From a virus, in IMG/VR virus record IMGVR_UViG_3300042874_000097, positions 1-20,839 of that record: a stretch of DNA of 20,839 nt; one strand, written 5' to 3'. The notes beneath the pieces were generated by a model. The model saw only the letters and a program-made list of their open reading frames with translations. It ran no database searches and was not told the DNA's origin. Within the stretch, counting starts at the first letter, position 1. Each line of letters opens with the position of its first letter. Both the position numbers and the translations under genes were made by a program. Of the stretch, positions 9,596 to 20,838 are shown piece by piece.

Positions 9596-10132
9596 ATGCT
9601 GGAAACCGGAACCATAACGGGCCGCGCGATATCACAGAATAAGGACGCTGAACGCCCGACCGTAATGCTGCAAGTAGTAGTGTCCGGGCCAGATGACGTA
9701 CAATCAGTAGAGCTGCAGTCGTTCGCGGGTGAAGATTACCAGCCCCCGGACGGGTCGCGCGTTTTTATCGCGGACGTGTCCGACACGTTCCGCGTGGCGA
9801 TCGTTGTAGACGACGGGATCGAACCCGCCGCCGATCTTGAGCAGGGCGAGCGCGAGCTATACAGCAGCGACGCGGGCACGCGCGAGGCAATGATCCGTTT
9901 GCGTAAAGACGGAACGATCCGCGTCAACGGAGGCGACGGTACGGCGGTCGAATACGCGCGGATGAAAACCGCGTTTGACGATCTCGTTACCGCGTTGAAC
10001 GACGTGGTCACATACATAAACAGTCACACGCACGCCGTGGCGGGCACAGTGGCAAACGCGCCCGTTCCGCCCCTTGCGCCCGTGTCGGTCGACATGTCCC
10101 CCGCCGAGTCGGCGACTGTGGTGATCCCATGA
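9596..10132 (+). CDS. Baseplate central spike protein (Mu gp45 / P2 gpV type)
   Basis: A 178-residue membrane-piercing spike. The N-terminal 95 residues suit the OB-fold (VMLQVVVSGPDDVQSVELQ, then EDYQPPDGSRVFIADVSD). The segment AMIRLRKDGTIRVNGGDGTAVEY is the start of a triple-stranded beta-helix, followed by a helix FDDLVTALNDVVTYINSH. The His-x-His pair at about residues 144 and 146 with a Gly/Pro-rich tail is typical of these spikes; in P2 gpV and related proteins such histidines hold an iron ion at the apex. No Shine-Dalgarno is visible before ATG 9596. The frame is the same as that of the hub, separated from it only by TAG and five codons. The end overlaps the next ATG (ATGA). Confidence 0.9.
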   Translation: MLETGTITGRAISQNKDAERPTVMLQVVVSGPDDVQSVELQSFAGEDYQPPDGSRVFIADVSDTFRVAIVVDDGIEPAADLEQGERELYSSDAGTREAMIRLRKDGTIRVNGGDGTAVEYARMKTAFDDLVTALNDVVTYINSHTHAVAGTVANAPVPPLAPVSVDMSPAESATVVIP

Positions 10133-10566
10133 GTTACGAGGGCGATCCGAAAATCTATATCACAGCGAACGGCGCTGACATGTCGTTCCGTGACGGCCAA
10201 CCTGTAATGGATCGCGGCCTTGAAAACGCCGTTGTTCTGTCGCTGCACTCCCGGGCGTGGTTTGGCAATTTGTTTTTACGCGAGGCGTCGCAGAAATTGA
10301 ACGGCCGGTTTGAACCGACCGCCGAAGGCCCGATCACGTTGTCCAATCTCGCGAACATCGAGAACGCGGCGCAGACGGATCTCGCGTGGATGGTAGAAAC
10401 GGGCGTCGCGTCGCGGGTACGCACGGCAACGGAAAACAACACAGGCGTTTCAACACGTACGGTCGTTGCGGTATCCCCGCCCGGTGCGGACGTGTTTACT
10501 CTCGTAGCCACTCGGCACGGGGCTAACTGGATTTCGCAGGCGTTCGATCCTGCAAGCGCGGAGTGA
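10129..10566 (+). CDS. Baseplate wedge protein, Mu gp46 family
   Basis: A 145-residue protein of the GP46 family, functionally like T4 gp25: it links the hub to the wedges and starts the sheath. Visible family features are DRGLENAVVLSLHSRAWFGN near residues 27-46, an LREASQKL helix and LSNLANIENAAQTDLAWMVETGVASRV, where a helix packs before the conserved strand. It has the gp46 length and lies between spike and baseplate J, as in Mu. It starts in an ATGA overlap with the spike gene and is one base from the next gene, so it is almost certainly translated by coupling. Confidence 0.88.
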   Translation: MSYEGDPKIYITANGADMSFRDGQPVMDRGLENAVVLSLHSRAWFGNLFLREASQKLNGRFEPTAEGPITLSNLANIENAAQTDLAWMVETGVASRVRTATENNTGVSTRTVVAVSPPGADVFTLVATRHGANWISQAFDPASAE

Positions 10567-10567
10567 C

Positions 10568-11716
10568 ATGACGCAGCCGACGACACAGGAATTGATTGAC
10601 CAGAATTTGACCGCGTTGGAAACGGCGCTTGGGCAGACTTCGCCCCTGAATGACAAGGCTTTTCTTCGAGTGCTGTCCGTGCTCATGGGGATGAATCAAA
10701 CCCAGCTTTACAAGTACGGGGTTGAACGCGCCGCGCAAACGTTGGCGCTCACGGCGACCGAGGACGATCTCGACACGATCGGCAGGAACTACGGCGTCAC
10801 GCGCAAGCCCGCCGGATCGGCGCGGTTCTCCGCGTCCACCACGGGATCGAACGGCGTTGTGATCAACTCGTCGGCGGTGTACGTGGGCGACTTGAACGGA
10901 GCGCAGTATGTTCCCGACGCACCGGTAACGATCGCGGGTGGCGTCGCAACGTTGGCGCTCACGGCGATACAGCAGGGCGTCGCGGGAAATCTGTCCGTAG
11001 GCGCAACGCTCACGATCGGATCGCAGGTTGCAGGCGTGGCAGCAGCGGCGATCGTGACAGTAATCACGGCGCTCGGTACCGATCGCGAGAGGGATGACGA
11101 CTACCGGACGCGCGTGCTGGATGAGGTCCGCACCGTTGGCGGGGGGTCAAATTCTGCTGACTATCGGCGGTGGGCGCAGGAAGTCGCGGGCGTGCAGCGG
11201 GCGTACCCGTATGCAGGCGCGATCCCCGGCGATCGGATCGTGTACGTGCAGTGCACAACCGATCTTGACCCGGACGGCATCGCGCCGCCGGCGTTGCTCG
11301 ACGCGGTGCGTGTGTCTATCACGACCGACCCGTTGACCGGGCAAGACCGGCAGGCGCTCGGGTCGGTAGATTCGGCGCTTGACGTGGAAGCGATTACCTG
11401 CACGGCGTTGGTCTATGAGGTACGCGGGCTGACGATACCCGGCACGCTCGCCCCGGACGCTATGGCTGCGCTTGAGGTCGCGCTTGCGGATTACACTGCA
11501 ACGTGTCGGCCGTTTGTAGATGGGCTCGACAGCGAAGTAGATCGCAATGACGTGGTAACATCCGTCTCGGCGGGAGCCGCGGTTAACGACGTGCTCCGCA
11601 ACTTCGGCGGGTTCGCGGCGTCCATTGGCGTCGGTATCATCGTGGGATCATATCTCAACAGTTATCAGCTTGACCCCGGCGAGCTCGTCAAGGTCGGACT
11701 GGTGCGGTATGTCTGA
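10568..11716 (+). CDS. Baseplate J-like protein (Mu gp47, T4 gp6 type)
   Basis: A 382-residue wedge protein that with gp46 and gp48 forms the baseplate rim. Signs of the family are the N-terminal helical part (LRVLSVLMGMNQTQLYKYGVERAAQ, then DLDTIGRNYGVTR), a middle beta-rich insert with GVATLALTAIQQGVAGNLSVGATL, and the conserved DDDYRTRVLDEVRTVGGGSNSADYRRWAQEVAGV block at about residues 177-210, which is the most diagnostic part. A YPYAGAIPGDRIVYV segment follows, as is typical. The start is one base after the gp46-like stop, and the end overlaps the next start by eight bases. Confidence 0.92.
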   Translation: MTQPTTQELIDQNLTALETALGQTSPLNDKAFLRVLSVLMGMNQTQLYKYGVERAAQTLALTATEDDLDTIGRNYGVTRKPAGSARFSASTTGSNGVVINSSAVYVGDLNGAQYVPDAPVTIAGGVATLALTAIQQGVAGNLSVGATLTIGSQVAGVAAAAIVTVITALGTDRERDDDYRTRVLDEVRTVGGGSNSADYRRWAQEVAGVQRAYPYAGAIPGDRIVYVQCTTDLDPDGIAPPALLDAVRVSITTDPLTGQDRQALGSVDSALDVEAITCTALVYEVRGLTIPGTLAPDAMAALEVALADYTATCRPFVDGLDSEVDRNDVVTSVSAGAAVNDVLRNFGGFAASIGVGIIVGSYLNSYQLDPGELVKVGLVRYV

Positions 11717-12563
11717 CAGTTTATCACGCCGCGCGTATGACGCGAACCTCCCCGACGGGGCGGCGTGGATCATTGCGCCCTCCGGCGACATGGACAAGTT
11801 GTTTGACGGCATCGCGGCGGGAGAGGATCTCGCGATCGATAATTTGCGCGGGTTGTCCGATACGCGCGACCCGTGGAAAACCACGGACATCGTGACCCTT
11901 GAGCGCGAGTACGGCATGCTTCCCGATCCGAGCCTGACCGACGCGCAACGGCGCGCCAGGGTCGCGGCGCTCGCATACGCCCCGAAGGGCACGGGGTCAC
12001 GGTCGTATCTACAGGCGCGTCTCCACGAGGCGGGATTTACAAATCTGTTTGTTTACGACAACTCGCCGAACGTTGATCCGGATCACCTCGTGGGCGCGCG
12101 TTATCACGCAATGTGTGGATTCGAAACGTCGGTGTGTGGCAATGAGGCGGCACTGTGTGGCGGTTGGGGGGGTGGCGAGTATATCGCTAACGGGGATCGA
12201 TGGTCGCGCAACATCGCATGGACGACCGCTTGCGGCCTCGCTGAATCCGTGTGTGGATACTATGAGGCAACATGCGGCGCGTTTATCGAATCGCGTGATT
12301 TGATCACACCCGACCCTCCCCCGGCAGGAACGTGGAACTTTGTATTTTTCATCGGCGGTGCGGTAATCCGTGACGGCCTCGGCGCGATCATCGAGATCGA
12401 ACAGATAACGATCCCGGAGAATCTGCGGGCGTTGTTTGTGACAGTAGTCACCCGCCACAAACCGCTTTATACGTGGGCCGCGTGCGCGGTCGAGTGGGCC
12501 CCTGTTGAACCGTGGACGGGATATGGATATTTCCCGTACGGCAACAGCGCCTATGGATTGTAA
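11709..12563 (+). CDS. Baseplate wedge protein, Mu gp48/DUF2313-like, with duplicated cysteine array
   Basis: A 284-residue protein in the gp48 position, where Mu and relatives have the DUF2313 protein joining wedge to fibre. The start is ATG 11709, eight bases inside the J gene; the frame is open further upstream, to about 11625, but those starts would lie deep in the J gene. The N-terminal part (LPDGAAWIIAPSGDMDKLFDGIA, RDPWKTTDIVTLEREYG) is like DUF2313, and 'RHKPLYTWAACAVEW' near the end is like the family's RHKPxHT ending. In between are two copies of a CGx5CGx5CG array: Cys 136/143/150 and Cys 175/182/189, each with seven-residue spacing. I do not know this array from the family. Confidence 0.85.
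   Translation: MSDSLSRRAYDANLPDGAAWIIAPSGDMDKLFDGIAAGEDLAIDNLRGLSDTRDPWKTTDIVTLEREYGMLPDPSLTDAQRRARVAALAYAPKGTGSRSYLQARLHEAGFTNLFVYDNSPNVDPDHLVGARYHAMCGFETSVCGNEAALCGGWGGGEYIANGDRWSRNIAWTTACGLAESVCGYYEATCGAFIESRDLITPDPPPAGTWNFVFFIGGAVIRDGLGAIIEIEQITIPENLRALFVTVVTRHKPLYTWAACAVEWAPVEPWTGYGYFPYGNSAYGL
12111..12278 (+). repeat. Duplicated heptad cysteine array within the gp48-like protein
   Basis: Two copies of a short protein repeat, at 12111-12161 and 12228-12278. The first reads MCGFETSVCGNEAALCG and the second ACGLAESVCGYYEATCG. They share CG at positions 2, 9 and 16, SV before the second CG and a small residue two before the third. The offset between copies is 39 residues, with GG-rich and Trp-rich sequence between. 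Identity is clear in protein but the bases differ (TGT in the first copy, TGC/TGT/TGC in the second), so the duplication is old or is held by selection on the protein. Confidence 0.8.
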
Positions 12564-12572
12564 GGAGTAGAA

Positions 12573-15500
12573 ATGCCCGAGCCGCAGACATACACAACTA
12601 ATTTTGCATGGCGCATCGTGCGCAAAGCGTTGTCCCGTTTGGACGTGCGCGACTGGTTCGCCGAGCAGACCACGTTTGCGAATGACATCGACGCGACCGT
12701 GAAAGTCGTGAAGGACACAGCAGACGTGGCCGCGGCGGCGGTTGCGGCGGGGATGGGCATCGGTGATCAGGTCACGATCATTGGGGGCGGGACGGTTGCG
12801 GATCCGTTGGTTGCGGTACAGCAGGATCTGCAGTCCGTACTGGAGACCGGATCCACGGCGACGATTGAGACTGACATTGAAGTGGCGGTTGAAAAAGACG
12901 CGCCGTTGTCCGGAATCAACAATCCGATCCATGTGCATGAACGAATCAGAAACACTGCAACGCTCGGAGTCACTGAAAAAGCGGTACAGATGCGGCGACG
13001 TGCCGAGGGTACAGGCGGAACCAGTTACGCAGAGAGCAATCAGACCGCGTCGGAGTCTGACAGCGCGCGTGATTTTATCAGTGACATTGCGGCGGTGGAT
13101 GTGCAGACAGCGCGCGTCCGGTGTCGGGTGGTTAATGGAGAAGCGCAGATTGTTGAGAGCGCACAAGTAAAGAATGTGGCGCTGAACGGCGACCAGACGG
13201 TTGCTCTTGAAAAAGACCTGCTCCTCGGCACCGTGACCGACACTGAAACCGTGAAGAACATCGGTGTGGGCGCGACGCTGCTGGACGAATCAGGTGCCTC
13301 TAAAATCGTTATCGTCGAGAGCGACAACAACGGCACCGGGGAGGGTCCGCTCGGTCGCGTGACTGTTCGCCAAGAGGCGTCGAACATCGCAGGGGGATCA
13401 TCATCGTCTGAATTCAGCATTGACTTTTTCTCCGGCGGCATTGAGAAGACTGTTGTGAGCAGCGGTGACGATGAGGGCGAAACCTTCCATGAGATCGAAG
13501 CTGACCGCGTAACCCTAAATGGTACTCAGATCGAAATTGAAACGCAGGTAAACGGGATTGAAGTTTATCCGACAATCGGAACAACTGAAACTGTTTACGG
13601 GCCCGAATTGGTAGTCAATCCAACTTTTGAATCTGGCGTTACTGGATGGCTGGCTCAATCAGGGGCGGTGTTGTCATGGCGCGAAGGTGGCCTGATGCGC
13701 ATTGCATATGGTGGAACCAATGACCCATATGCTACACAGTCACCGCTCGCAGCCGGACAGCAGTATATAGCAGAATTGAGAGTCAGAAGCGGCGGGACTA
13801 TGACTCCGCGCCTGATCGACCTGATGTCGGTTGTCTGGACTGGAACCACCGCTACAACGTGGCAACGCGCTACTGTTATATTCACTGCGGCGGGCGCGGG
13901 CGTAGCATTTCAGGGCGTCGGATCTTCGGGCTACATCGAAGTGGATTTGATTTCAGTGCGCAAGGTTTTGACGGCGAATATAACTGACCGGTCGCTTACT
14001 GAATCCGTATACCAGAACGCGCTCAGATATTCGGAAGACCTTTCAAATGCCGCATGGGTCACTACAGCGACAAATAAACTTCCCGGCGTGGGATTTTTTT
14101 CACCCATCAGAAAACTGGACGGGGCGCTTGTGGAGTATCAGGCAATTGCGGCGACAGCAGTCTCCGCAATGCACACAATCGAGCAGACTTTCACCGACAT
14201 CGGCGTTCCGTCGGTATTCCGCATGGCGCTGCGTCCCGGCCGGTCTACATGGGCATTTATTTCCGTGTCGGCTCCGGTGTTTCAGGGGTTTTATTTTGAT
14301 CTTGTGAATGCGGTTGTCGGTACGAAATCAGCGATTACTGATGCTGATATTCGGGTTTCAAAAATCGGTTTCGACGTTCTTTTGTCGGTGAAGTTCACCG
14401 GATCCACAGGCTCGAAAGTTTTGCAGATTGCTCCTGCATTCGGTGACGCGCTGATCAATGTAACCGGCGACGGGGTGACCCCTGAATTGTACCTTGCGGC
14501 TCCGCAGGTTTATTCCGGCGCAGTCGGCGACGGCACCCGGTACGCTACCAGCGTCTCGACGGCTATCGCATCGAGACAGGTTTTCTGTTCTACTCTCGAC
14601 CAGCGTCAAAAATGGGATTCAGGACTTCTGCAACGCACCGACGCGCAACGCGGCAAGGGCAGCGCGGACGGATGGGAAGTGCCGACGCCTACCGGAAGTT
14701 ATTTCCCGACCATGAGCATTGACGAAACGCTCACGGGTAACGGGGTTTCAACTTCTTATGGTGTGGCAAAAGAGGTCATCGCGTGCCTCGGAGACTCAAT
14801 AACAGACGGCCTGAACAACGGTTATCCGGAGCGTCTGAACGCGGTGTTTCCATATCGAAATATGATCAACTACGGCGTGTCCGGGGCAAGCACGGCGCAG
14901 ATGATCGCGAACGATACGCTCACTACCGAGCTTGTGCAGTTGCTTCCGGCTATCGGGCGGCTGTATTGGGATTTCAAGAGCGCGCTGCTTTTCCCGTTTA
15001 CCGCGATTAACTCTGCAGTGTTGTCCATTGCATCCAGCAAACTGAGGGTTACGCAAGGCGCGGCGGCTTCCCCGTCGGCGCAGCTCCGGATAATGAACGT
15101 CGGACAGCGGGTTAAAATCAGCGGCACGGCGTACGGCGACGGAACGGCGGCACCTTCAGTCGTGTCTTCTGCGTACGGCGCATTGTGGACTGGTACCAGC
15201 TCAACCGGCGCTCAGACATTTTCTGTCTATTTGACTTCTACGGTTTACGGCGAAGGGATACAGTTTGCTGTCACGGGCGGAAGCGCTGCAAACTATATTG
15301 AGGTCGCTGGTTTGACTATTGAATTGAATACAATGCCAAGCCCGAAACCTTCGACCCTTATCGCCATGTCCGGGGTTAATGACATCGCGGATTTGACGAC
15401 GCTTGCCGACATCAAAACACATCAGGATTTTATCAGCAGACAGGCACAGCAGCAGGGCATCCGCGCGGTATGGATGAACATCACGCCGGTTGACGCATAT

Positions 15501-16112
15501 GGATTCACAGCGCCGCAGAAGGCCGACATCAAAGCGCTGAATGAATGGCAGTACGGCGGAAGCCTTGCGGACGCAGTGATTGACACGTCTGCGCTCGGAG
15601 ACATCAATCACGAATTGCTTGCTGACTATGACAGCGGAGACCACCTCCACCCGAACGTGGCAGGATATGCTTTCCTCGGAGAAATCGTGAAGGCTGAATA
15701 TTTCATGCAGCCAACTTTCACCGATGACAAAACCCGAAGTGCGAAGGGTTACGCGCAACTTTCCAGCATCGTTTCTGGCGACGTGAGCGGATGGGAAATT
15801 CCGCAGAACTCTACCAGCGCAACACAATATCAATATCGCGCGACACCGGCAGACATTGGCCGCTATGGTGTCAATGTGCGGATGATGAAGTTCGGCGCGC
15901 TGTCGGACGGTGATACTCTGGCAACTGCGACGGCGATACACGGCGGGTCTGTAACCGTGAGCAACGGCACAAACCGAATCACGCTGCCGCTGAATTACAC
16001 AGATGGAACAAACACGGTGTCGATCTTTTTGAGCGGTACAACTGGCAGCGGAACAATAACAGCGTCGATAACTGGTTACACAGTTATCAGCGGTTGCGTG
16101 GTGTACTCATGA
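12573..16112 (+). CDS. Large tail fibre / receptor-binding protein with SGNH hydrolase domain
   Basis: An 1179-residue protein after the baseplate genes, so most likely the main fibre or tailspike; AAGGAG at 12562-12567 precedes ATG 12573. Parts in order: an N-terminal 340-residue region, probably for baseplate attachment and trimerisation; a galactose-binding-like beta sandwich (343-465, NPTFESGVTGW to YIEVDLISV); a second beta-sandwich module (about 485-663, RYSEDLSNAAW start); an SGNH domain (735-1050); a C-terminal beta domain. SGNH motifs: GDSITDG with Ser742, block II Gly768/771 (YGVSG), block III GVND with Asn936, block V DHLHP with Asp1023 and His1026. This suggests deacetylation or ester cleavage of surface polysaccharide; substrate unknown. 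About 120 residues are inserted between blocks II and III. From about 13500 the base composition is poorer in GC than in the tail genes. Confidence 0.88.
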   Translation: MPEPQTYTTNFAWRIVRKALSRLDVRDWFAEQTTFANDIDATVKVVKDTADVAAAAVAAGMGIGDQVTIIGGGTVADPLVAVQQDLQSVLETGSTATIETDIEVAVEKDAPLSGINNPIHVHERIRNTATLGVTEKAVQMRRRAEGTGGTSYAESNQTASESDSARDFISDIAAVDVQTARVRCRVVNGEAQIVESAQVKNVALNGDQTVALEKDLLLGTVTDTETVKNIGVGATLLDESGASKIVIVESDNNGTGEGPLGRVTVRQEASNIAGGSSSSEFSIDFFSGGIEKTVVSSGDDEGETFHEIEADRVTLNGTQIEIETQVNGIEVYPTIGTTETVYGPELVVNPTFESGVTGWLAQSGAVLSWREGGLMRIAYGGTNDPYATQSPLAAGQQYIAELRVRSGGTMTPRLIDLMSVVWTGTTATTWQRATVIFTAAGAGVAFQGVGSSGYIEVDLISVRKVLTANITDRSLTESVYQNALRYSEDLSNAAWVTTATNKLPGVGFFSPIRKLDGALVEYQAIAATAVSAMHTIEQTFTDIGVPSVFRMALRPGRSTWAFISVSAPVFQGFYFDLVNAVVGTKSAITDADIRVSKIGFDVLLSVKFTGSTGSKVLQIAPAFGDALINVTGDGVTPELYLAAPQVYSGAVGDGTRYATSVSTAIASRQVFCSTLDQRQKWDSGLLQRTDAQRGKGSADGWEVPTPTGSYFPTMSIDETLTGNGVSTSYGVAKEVIACLGDSITDGLNNGYPERLNAVFPYRNMINYGVSGASTAQMIANDTLTTELVQLLPAIGRLYWDFKSALLFPFTAINSAVLSIASSKLRVTQGAAASPSAQLRIMNVGQRVKISGTAYGDGTAAPSVVSSAYGALWTGTSSTGAQTFSVYLTSTVYGEGIQFAVTGGSAANYIEVAGLTIELNTMPSPKPSTLIAMSGVNDIADLTTLADIKTHQDFISRQAQQQGIRAVWMNITPVDAYGFTAPQKADIKALNEWQYGGSLADAVIDTSALGDINHELLADYDSGDHLHPNVAGYAFLGEIVKAEYFMQPTFTDDKTRSAKGYAQLSSIVSGDVSGWEIPQNSTSATQYQYRATPADIGRYGVNVRMMKFGALSDGDTLATATAIHGGSVTVSNGTNRITLPLNYTDGTNTVSIFLSGTTGSGTITASITGYTVISGCVVYS

Positions 16113-17254: not shown

Positions 17255-18037
17255 ATGAAAGACTACGCATCCATACCAAACACGACCGGCGCGTTTCCTG
17301 CGGTCGAAGCGATCAACAGTACCACCGCGACAACGTTGGACGGTACGCCCCTGCTTGCCGACAGCGTGAACGAGTGGTGGGGATTTTCACAGGCGTTACT
17401 TGAATTCGTGGGCGCAACGCCGAGCGGTGCGGTTGAGGCGTCCGGCGCGTCGCAGCTGCTCGACTCGTTGCGGCGCATCGCGGGTCACCCAGGGGAGATC
17501 GTTTTCTGGGCGGGCAACGATGACCCGTCCGCATTCCTCGACGGCCTGCGGCTGTTACTGCTTGAGGGGCAGGGGGTACTCGTTGCGGACTACCCTTTGC
17601 TCACTGCGGCGGTGTACGTGGGCGACGCGCTCAACGGATCAGCGGGGGCGTTTTATCGCTGCACCAACGCCAACGGTAGCGGACGCAGTACGACCGGTGC
17701 CTACCTCAAACTCCCCGACGCGGGAGGACGCTTTCCGCGTGTGATCAACACGCCCGGTCAGCCTATGGTCAACCCGCAAGCGTTGATCGCTGGCGACGTG
17801 CAACCCCCCGCCGTGGCGGGTCACGGTCACGTACTGGCCGACGTGGTAAGCGGTAACGTCGCGACCGCCGGGTACACTACGGTCACGACAGGCGCAGGCC
17901 CCGAGGCGTACATTCGATCCGCCGTTGGCGCGGGCGGACTGTATGCCCCGTCGTCGGGATCGATCACGGGTGCAACGGATCCCTTGGACAACCGACCCTA
18001 TGGCATCTGCGCCGGGTCGCTCGCCGTGAGGTATTAA
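17255..18037 (+). CDS. Tail fibre/collar-type protein
   Basis: A 260-residue protein with AAGGAG at 17244-17249 before ATG 17255. The N-terminal segment (IPNTTGAFPAVEAINSTT, DSVNEWWGFSQALLEFVG) and the short motif GASQLLDSLRRIAG are typical of phage tail proteins whose first part attaches to the baseplate. In the middle PDAGGRFPRVI is a tail-collar-like signature (G-R-F-P), followed by a GHGH segment (residues about 189-192). The C-terminus LDNRPYGICAGSLAVRY matches the ending of many collar/fibre proteins (NRP....l...I.Y). It is likely a second, shorter fibre or a host-range variant tip. There is a 37-base spacer after the previous gene, one of the longest here. Confidence 0.8.
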   Translation: MKDYASIPNTTGAFPAVEAINSTTATTLDGTPLLADSVNEWWGFSQALLEFVGATPSGAVEASGASQLLDSLRRIAGHPGEIVFWAGNDDPSAFLDGLRLLLLEGQGVLVADYPLLTAAVYVGDALNGSAGAFYRCTNANGSGRSTTGAYLKLPDAGGRFPRVINTPGQPMVNPQALIAGDVQPPAVAGHGHVLADVVSGNVATAGYTTVTTGAGPEAYIRSAVGAGGLYAPSSGSITGATDPLDNRPYGICAGSLAVRY

Positions 18038-19706: not shown

Positions 19707-19879
19707 GTCGTGGCCCCCGTTCCGAACGGGTGATCAAACGTGAGTACCCGCGAGGCAACGCTGTCCGAAAGGGTCTGGATCGCCCGGTTGATCGCGGTCC
19801 TCGTTTCGTCCGTTACGGGATATTTTAACTCCGCGGACAAAATCTGTATGGTGTATGCCCTGTCTTCTATCGCGTTCAT
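19703..19879 (-). CDS. 58-residue helical protein downstream of DNA polymerase
   Basis: A small protein starting MNAIEDRAYTIQILSAELKY. ATG at 19877-19879 overlaps the polymerase TGA (19876-19878), and an AAGAGG lies eight bases before it, which favours this start over an in-frame upstream ATG at 19901-19903. Most of it is predicted to be helical (DETRTAINRAIQTLSDSVASRV), ending in a short Gly/Thr tail. The ATGA junction at both ends makes it part of one transcript with the polymerase and the next gene. Small proteins next to phage polymerases vary widely; the function is unknown. Confidence 0.68.
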   Translation of the reverse strand: MNAIEDRAYTIQILSAELKYPVTDETRTAINRAIQTLSDSVASRVLTFDHPFGTGATT

Positions 19880-20838
19880 TTCTTGTACCTCTTCCCCCGC
19901 CATCCGCCGGCGGCGCGTATCGGCCAGTCATGCGCCCACGCGGGGCGTGTGGCCATCAGTGTTTCAAATTCGCTCACGTCGCCCCAACCTTCGGGCACTT
20001 CCGCGATGACCTCATCATGCACGTGAGCAACGATCGGGTAACCCGCTGCGTCGATGCGCAGCATAGCCTCGGCGAGCAGATCGCGCGATGCGGCCTGTAC
20101 TACGTTCTCGGTCAATACTCCCCCGTGTGTGGACTGCACCGAGGGCTTGCCCGTTTTCTTGTCCGCACCCGTGAACAGTATTTTCTTGATCGGCTGTCGG
20201 CTGAATCGATCCACGTCGTCGGTCAAGCGCGCCTCGTGGTAATACAGATCGCGTCCGGAGGGCAGACGACAATGCAACACGCCGGTCGCAGGATTCAATG
20301 CGTAACTGATCGCCCGGTGTGAATACCACGCGCCTGGATTCAACACGGCTTGCACGGCTGCGCCCTCAAGGCCGTAGCAACACGGCGCGAACGTCCACGG
20401 TGCAACCTCGCGCCACTGCCCTCCCCAGAATTCCACGATCGCAGGGGACGCGGCGCGCCATTTGAGGATCGCGTTTTTAATCGAGGCGTCGTCGGGAAAA
20501 TGATCCGCCGCGCCGAAACGTTTCCACGCGTTTACCCAGCCCCGATATCCGCTCGCGAGCTCCGCAATTTTACCGAGGCTGTTCCGGAGCGCATGATGCT
20601 CCCCCGTGCGCGTTTTATGTTCGGTAATTTCTTCAAACGGGATCCCGGTGATCATCGCGACCGACATTTCATAAATTTTCCCATGCGTGCGGAACACCTC
20701 AAGCCGCCACTCTTCACCGGCCAACGCGGCCAACACTACCGCTTCGATCGCGCTGTAATCGCTGCAGATCAGATCGTGCCCCGGCGCGGCGATCAGTAGC
20801 AGTCGAATCGACTCCGACACCTCGGCCAACGTTCCGCC
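19876..20838 (-). CDS. DNA polymerase, family A (5' end outside window)
   Basis: The C-terminal polymerase domain of a phage replicative family A enzyme; 320 residues are visible and the frame is open to the right edge, so the 5' part (further palm/thumb and perhaps an exonuclease) is missing. Motif A is ICSDYSAIEAVVLAAL (catalytic Asp near 20758-20760). Motif B is GKIAELASGY, a K-x3-L-x3-Y arrangement, with Leu at the site matching E. coli Pol I Phe762. Motif C is HVHDEVIAEV, with the His-Asp-Glu triad around 20011-20019. Between them lies GGVLTENVVQAASRDLLAEAM, typical of phage enzymes. It synthesises phage DNA. It faces the structural genes and opens the coupled minus-strand chain. Confidence 0.93.
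   Translation of the reverse strand, partial: GGTLAEVSESIRLLLIAAPGHDLICSDYSAIEAVVLAALAGEEWRLEVFRTHGKIYEMSVAMITGIPFEEITEHKTRTGEHHALRNSLGKIAELASGYRGWVNAWKRFGAADHFPDDASIKNAILKWRAASPAIVEFWGGQWREVAPWTFAPCCYGLEGAAVQAVLNPGAWYSHRAISYALNPATGVLHCRLPSGRDLYYHEARLTDDVDRFSRQPIKKILFTGADKKTGKPSVQSTHGGVLTENVVQAASRDLLAEAMLRIDAAGYPIVAHVHDEVIAEVPEGWGDVSEFETLMATRPAWAHDWPIRAAGGWRGKRYKK

Follow-up and report, generated by a model that had tools for sequence, protein, structure and literature searches.

Paired Cys-Gly heptad arrays in a gp48-like baseplate wedge protein as likely docking sockets for a trimeric tail fibre

Fibres are the phage parts most exchanged, and the basis on which a baseplate chooses its fibre is known from few structures. 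Among the described systems closest to the locus reported here, gp48 of phage Mu and gp45 of phage E217 hold trimeric fibres via loops (PMC11915804, PMC10329688). Phage Pam3 (PDB 7yfz) is reported to carry twelve fibres, two per wedge, which are disulfide-linked to the wedge (PMC10329688, PMC11821841), and BW3 of Milano forms disulfides to short tail fibres (PMC10811340). Pseudomonas phage K8 encodes a DUF2612 wedge protein, GP075, which contains the stretch VGAPWYSVG. The main change in K8 variants with altered adsorption is the presence of one to three extra copies of the seven-residue unit APWYSVG, and in a bacterial two-hybrid assay the fibre GP076 associates with unchanged GP075 only; in the original interpretation, the variant acts as an additional binder of the receptor (PMC9887876). 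The VGAPWYSVG stretch is shared by protein gp89 of PDB entries 9zd7, 9zd8, and 9zdk.

The array-bearing wedge protein and its known counterparts

The stretch of DNA analyzed here, referred to as the window, comprises 20,839 nucleotides of the IMG/VR virus record IMGVR_UViG_3300042874_000097. Its gene order, i.e., gp46-like, gp47/Baseplate_J, gp48, and receptor-binding proteins, is the one expected for a Phage_Mu_Gp48 locus. The wedge genes and arrays are located as follows:

10129..10566, plus strand: gp46-like wedge protein (phrog_180); the VP16T orthologue itself bears an array
10568..11716, plus strand: Baseplate_J/gp47-like wedge protein, the wedge partner of gp48 (PF04865, 2.8e-31; phrog_6, 2.7e-34)
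11709..12563, plus strand: gp48-like baseplate wedge protein (BW3 type), ORF P0001, 284 aa (Pfam, PHROG, profile and fold matches)
12114..12161, plus strand: heptad array 1, CGFETSVCGNEAALCG, residues 136-151 (pattern match; in register in relatives)
12231..12278, plus strand: heptad array 2, CGLAESVCGYYEATCG, residues 175-190 (pattern match; in register in relatives)

Within the gp48-like protein, the pattern CGx5CGx5CG occurs twice, with cysteines at positions 136, 143, and 150 and again at 175, 182, and 189, each followed by glycine, and with array starts 39 residues apart. This is exactly the duplication of two Cys-Gly triplets given in the preliminary description. Of the interval assigned to it there (12111-12278), the end is correct and the start lies one codon early, at Met135. 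The sole cysteine beyond the arrays is C259. Shuffling the protein sequence (7 Cys, 30 Gly) 200,000 times produced neither two arrays nor a single one.

As far as sequence relationships go, this is a remote gp48-like BW3 protein standing outside the Pfam family by its curated threshold. The identity, which bears out the earlier naming as a gp48-like baseplate protein in the sense of a remote wedge homologue, is based on several congruent lines of evidence. PF10076 (Phage_Mu_Gp48) scores 14.2 bits against a curated cut-off of 37.4 and is hence below threshold, while phrog_203 (“baseplate wedge subunit”) matches with an E-value of 1.5e-6. A profile built from six sequences, namely the window protein plus five relatives from cultured phages, recovered chain a of PDB 9ki1 (Mu gp48) at 1.6e-9, another family profile giving 1.4e-12. 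The hhalign comparison of relatives of the window protein with Mu gp48 reached 97.7%, the homology lying in the N-terminal wedge domain. Moreover, the neighboring genes are gp46-like and Baseplate_J, and the fold of the flanking parts weakly matches BW3 proteins of Mu, phiCD508, and others, these Foldseek/VIA matches being confined to the flanking wedge domain. PHROG_4920 is the family to which the array-bearing relatives belong (best 1e-77, with matches for all six aligned sequences) and has no function assigned in PHROGs, whereas the window protein matches it only distantly (3e-5), over residues 14-129 only, with the array part outside the match. Scanning viral contigs with the window sequence alone as query (the 284-aa protein) returned zero relatives, profiles being required; the genome scan yielded three relatives only.

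The Mu gp48 loop (PDB 9ki1, PMC11915804) resembles the arrays in its BW3 position, in belonging to the C-terminal domain and, if the reading proposed below is correct, in its role of holding a trimeric fibre. However, the Mu loop (residues 133-155) is short, non-repetitive, and located after the second strand, whereas the window family carries an insert of ~90 residues with two heptad arrays before the second strand. Because the one follows and the other precedes this strand, the Mu docking loop and the array are probably two separate loops within one domain. E217 gp45 (PMC10329688) offers a likeness in one wedge chain reaching into the N-terminus of a trimeric fibre; it differs as a larger protein for which no heptad repeat is reported. 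The disulfide networks reported for Milano and Pam3 likewise place cysteines at the wedge-fibre junction; those are scattered pairs, in contrast to a glycine heptad with replaceable Cys. No array-bearing BW3 protein was found in the PDB. In AlphaFold monomers of the window protein and of the relative L078 the arrays are left without a confident fold (pLDDT about 43-57), and this low confidence fits folding on binding and, equally, ignorance on the part of the model.

Array variation among relatives

Across 132 distinct relatives from cultured phages and viral contigs, the motif takes the general form X-G-x5-X-G-x5-X-G, in which Gly is retained and X is Cys, Asp, Ala, Ser, Leu, Ile, Met, or Thr. 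The heptad unit follows the consensus X-G-(D/E/N/G)-x-x-(A/S/M)-x with three units per array, the commonest array length, and the number of arrays per protein ranges from 0 to 3. The arrays of the window protein are in register with those of its relatives (five cultured phages, viral contigs, and further cultured phages); Shewanella phage SFCi1 and Vibrio phage VP16T are among the cultured relatives. X is Cys in most relatives and at 232 of the 372 positions of the first set (124 arrays), representing the commonest residue. Asp is found in the Vibrio phages 97.13 and 367.14 and thirteen further loci, Ala in L011, L059, L067, and L090, Leu in L080, Ile in L095, Thr in L064, Met in Vibrio phage 1.225.O, MAG7, and relatives, and Ser in the second array of the L161 lineage, the first array of which has Cys. 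The closest relatives of the window carry Ala, Ile, Cys, or no array.

This variation follows a concerted pattern. Arrays with one X throughout make up 75 of the 124 arrays in the first set, compared with 25% expected from pooled frequencies. Between the two arrays of one protein, X identity amounts to 0.78 vs. 0.44 with shuffled partners (maximum of 0.58 in 10,000; first set), and the X class agrees in all 56 of the 56 two-array proteins of this set. A recent 21-nt duplication as the source of uniform X was rejected for most arrays, because X is encoded by differing codons in 71 of the 115 homogeneous arrays and the DNA of heptads 2 and 3 is on average 62% identical. The preliminary description had named cysteines that are lacking or randomly varied in homologues as an observation that would speak against it. 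This applies by half: the cysteines do vary, but they do so in concert, not at random. Judged from these alignments, a cysteine-specific function is not the conserved property, since X changes to Ala, Ile, Asp, Leu, Met, Thr, or Ser while Gly stays.

Pairing of the arrays with a fibre module

In the relatives, the gene adjoining gp48 encodes a tail fibre whose N-terminal module is conserved (GDGTGTPWEAALVNDLFGFQQALL...), and this fibre module is present at 112 of the 132 loci. In the window, the module-bearing fibre gene lies 4.7 kb downstream of the wedge gene, with an unrelated receptor-binding protein encoded in between:

12573..16112, plus strand: adjacent 1179-aa protein with a GDSL esterase domain (PF13472, 3e-14), probably a second receptor-binding protein
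17255..18037, plus strand: tail fibre protein of 260 aa with the family's N-terminal docking module, the presumed plug for the arrays (phrog_26525 “tail fiber protein”, 9.3e-7, residues 9-74; profile match)
17273..17494, plus strand: N-terminal module of this fibre as aligned to the profile, containing LDGTPLLADSVNEWWGFSQALLEF

Because the GDSL-esterase protein, which was absent from the matches of the docking module profile, sits between the wedge gene and the module-bearing fibre, the window phage probably has two kinds of receptor-binding protein. At four loci (L053, L065, L076, and L079) the module-bearing fibre is encoded upstream of gp48, not downstream; a single, partly degenerate array is retained in each of them. 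In the L161 lineage, unlike arrays (Cys, then Ser) are found together with two unlike fibre modules. No fibre module was found near Met-type arrays, and a PDB search with the module returned zero homologues.

The two partners covary at defined positions. Asp-type arrays are accompanied by an Arg at offset 7 or 8 of the GTPWEAALVND motif of the fibre in 15 of 15 loci, compared with one of the 80 others; L077 provides an example of an Asp-type pair. Within the 87 fibre columns, the two Arg-bearing ones have the highest mutual information with the array type (0.42 and 0.52 bits), while the best column of the wedge N-domain reaches 0.13 bits. This Asp-Arg pairing is, from the trees at hand, not phylogenetically secure. 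Independent Asp events are few or uncertain, because the supported branches force two changes to Asp only; the independent Asp-Arg pairs on well-supported branches number two, both concordant (p 0.5), and a single Asp clade is compatible with the tree test on the smaller set (p-AU 0.205), the strict phylogenetic test of this covariation being underpowered. Asp types are scattered over the wedge N-domain tree, and some of the spread of this pairing may be due to the C-terminal part of the wedge protein and the fibre having been exchanged jointly. Such an exchange would still tie both together.

In a complementary approach, seven cultured phages were gathered by the fibre module alone and the gene directly upstream of the fibre gene(s) was then scored for an array. 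In four of them (Klebsiella phage KpV79, Vibrio phage 1.054.O, the latter with two module-bearing genes in tandem, Pseudoalteromonas phage J2-1, and Iodobacter phage phiPLPE), the top array-like stretch among 122-244 ORFs sits in the wedge gene that immediately precedes the fibre gene(s) on the upstream side, and the encoded wedge proteins belong to DUF2612, a separate Pfam family. Absolute array scores are modest except for KpV79, those of three of the four positives being no better than low-complexity stretches elsewhere. The other three are without a clear neighboring array: Vibrio phage F18 gave a weak result, and the Aeromonas phages PhAER-4 and PAc (L218 and L220; 115-124 kb) were negative, carrying the N-terminal fibre module with no recognizable adjoining array. 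VP16T combines two module-bearing fibre genes with two arrays, of which gp48 carries one and the N-terminus of a gp46-type protein the other. At L009 the fibre module occurs without an array, and several phages with one or three arrays carry two fibre genes, so that simple counting breaks.

GP075 of phage K8 also has an X-G heptad whose copy number is changed by seven-residue duplications, and only its unchanged form gave a two-hybrid signal with the fibre. It differs in belonging to another wedge family, in having two units, and in its fibre. As the fibre module could not be detected in the latter, K8 serves as an analogue only.

A socket reading and its alternatives

The observations comprise the repeat itself, its occurrence across the family, the coordinated change of X, the pairing of arrays with the fibre module, and the Asp-Arg covariation. 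On these grounds, we consider it likely that the two CGx5CGx5CG stretches are docking sockets for a trimeric tail fibre. The array, situated on the C-terminal domain of the wedge protein, would be largely unordered until it meets the N-terminal module of the homotrimeric fibre. Number and uniformity of the units suggest that the three X-G units would each touch an identical site, one unit per fibre chain. If a single fibre residue faces all three array positions, the usual uniformity of X within an array would be accounted for, as would the shared X of both arrays where a single fibre gene serves them. Two arrays would hold two fibre trimers per wedge, resulting in twelve per virion as in Pam3, and one array would hold one trimer. 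The cysteines of the window would then provide small side chains buried within the socket and would not form a metal site, although they may oxidize incidentally after release. The wedge-fibre junction, proposed in the preliminary description as the place of action, is likely on this reading. Counting against the socket are the low confidence of the arrays in the monomer models, the phylogenetically insecure Asp-Arg pairing, the three module-bearing phages lacking a clear neighboring array and the modest scores of three of the four positives, the K8 fibre without a detectable module, the different position of the Mu loop, the distance between wedge and fibre genes in the window, and the loci that break simple counting.

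A metal or Fe-S site, also suggested there, would suit the regular Cys spacing and the six ligands present in the window and some relatives. Nevertheless, Asp, Ala, Ser, Leu, Ile, Met, and Thr replace the cysteines in register with Gly kept, and the array persists even where Ala, Leu, Ile, or Met fills every or nearly every X position; Asp-type arrays could bind other metals, the Leu, Met, Ile, and Ala types not in the same way. We regard such a site as highly improbable. The same in-register replacement weighs against disulfides, be it the ladder considered earlier or bonds that the array cysteines form mutually or with the fibre after release, locking the fibres as in Pam3 and Milano. Despite these two precedents and Cys being the commonest X, post-release locking is quite unlikely: the number of array cysteines is odd in 31 of 75 Cys-type proteins, and 62 of the 66 fibre modules paired with Cys-type arrays are devoid of Cys, as is the aligned fibre module of the window. 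Direct Cys-Cys pairing between array and fibre was rejected on this last ground. Neither Cys ligands as in a metal site nor paired Cys as in Milano and Pam3 are conserved among the homologues, and the Fe-S, metal, and disulfide-ladder readings are all disfavored because X varies while Gly is conserved.

The array could also be a self-contained beta-solenoid or turn-rich spacer which stiffens the wedge arm, its co-occurrence with the fibre module reflecting hitchhiking in a shared exchange module. The seven-residue periodicity, the invariant Gly, and the variable array number (0-3) would agree with this, and the scattered placement of Asp types in the wedge N-domain tree hints that the C-terminal part was exchanged together with the fibre. 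We nonetheless find this explanation unlikely, since the top fibre covariation falls on two adjacent residues and is not spread across the module, DUF2612 and gp46-type wedge proteins encoded close to this fibre module also carry arrays, and the K8 two-hybrid data speak against a mere spacer.

Extending the socket reading beyond this family, it is a serious if tentative possibility that the X-G heptad is a general transferable socket across unrelated wedge proteins, in which array number sets fibre number, three units match three chains, and X together with one or two fibre residues provides a pairing code. By analogy, the duplication in K8 might also be a change in the fibre socket. If this holds true, a sequence-readable repeat and a covarying residue would allow prediction of fibre-wedge matches, the published seven-residue duplications of K8 would be explained, and the array would provide a clean case of one chain matching a three-fold partner through tandem repetition. 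A fibre docking element in a wedge protein is of a known kind; a search of open-access literature found no paper on the array, nor a description of the repeat, its recurrence in three wedge families, or its covariation with the fibre.

Several further features were seen in the course of the survey. Two proteins encoded upstream of gp46/gp47 (L200, 604-1947, the same protein as L044, 3-923; and L116, 97-1830) contain Cys-Gly heptad arrays interleaved with long repeats (e.g., ATAATQGQVASSVGPVSVSAQ). A long, beta-propeller-like repeat insert (SADGAVVYVVDSSTGSVYRSTDSGDSFTDLG) directly precedes the array region in the gp48-like proteins of L135 (3477-5102) and L136 (1152-2201), and that of L094 (2176-3393) has an extra inserted domain of ~120 residues resembling a carbohydrate-binding module. 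Near the contig end of the window, an ORF on the minus strand (19876-20829) resembles, by eye only, the C-terminal part of a family A DNA polymerase.
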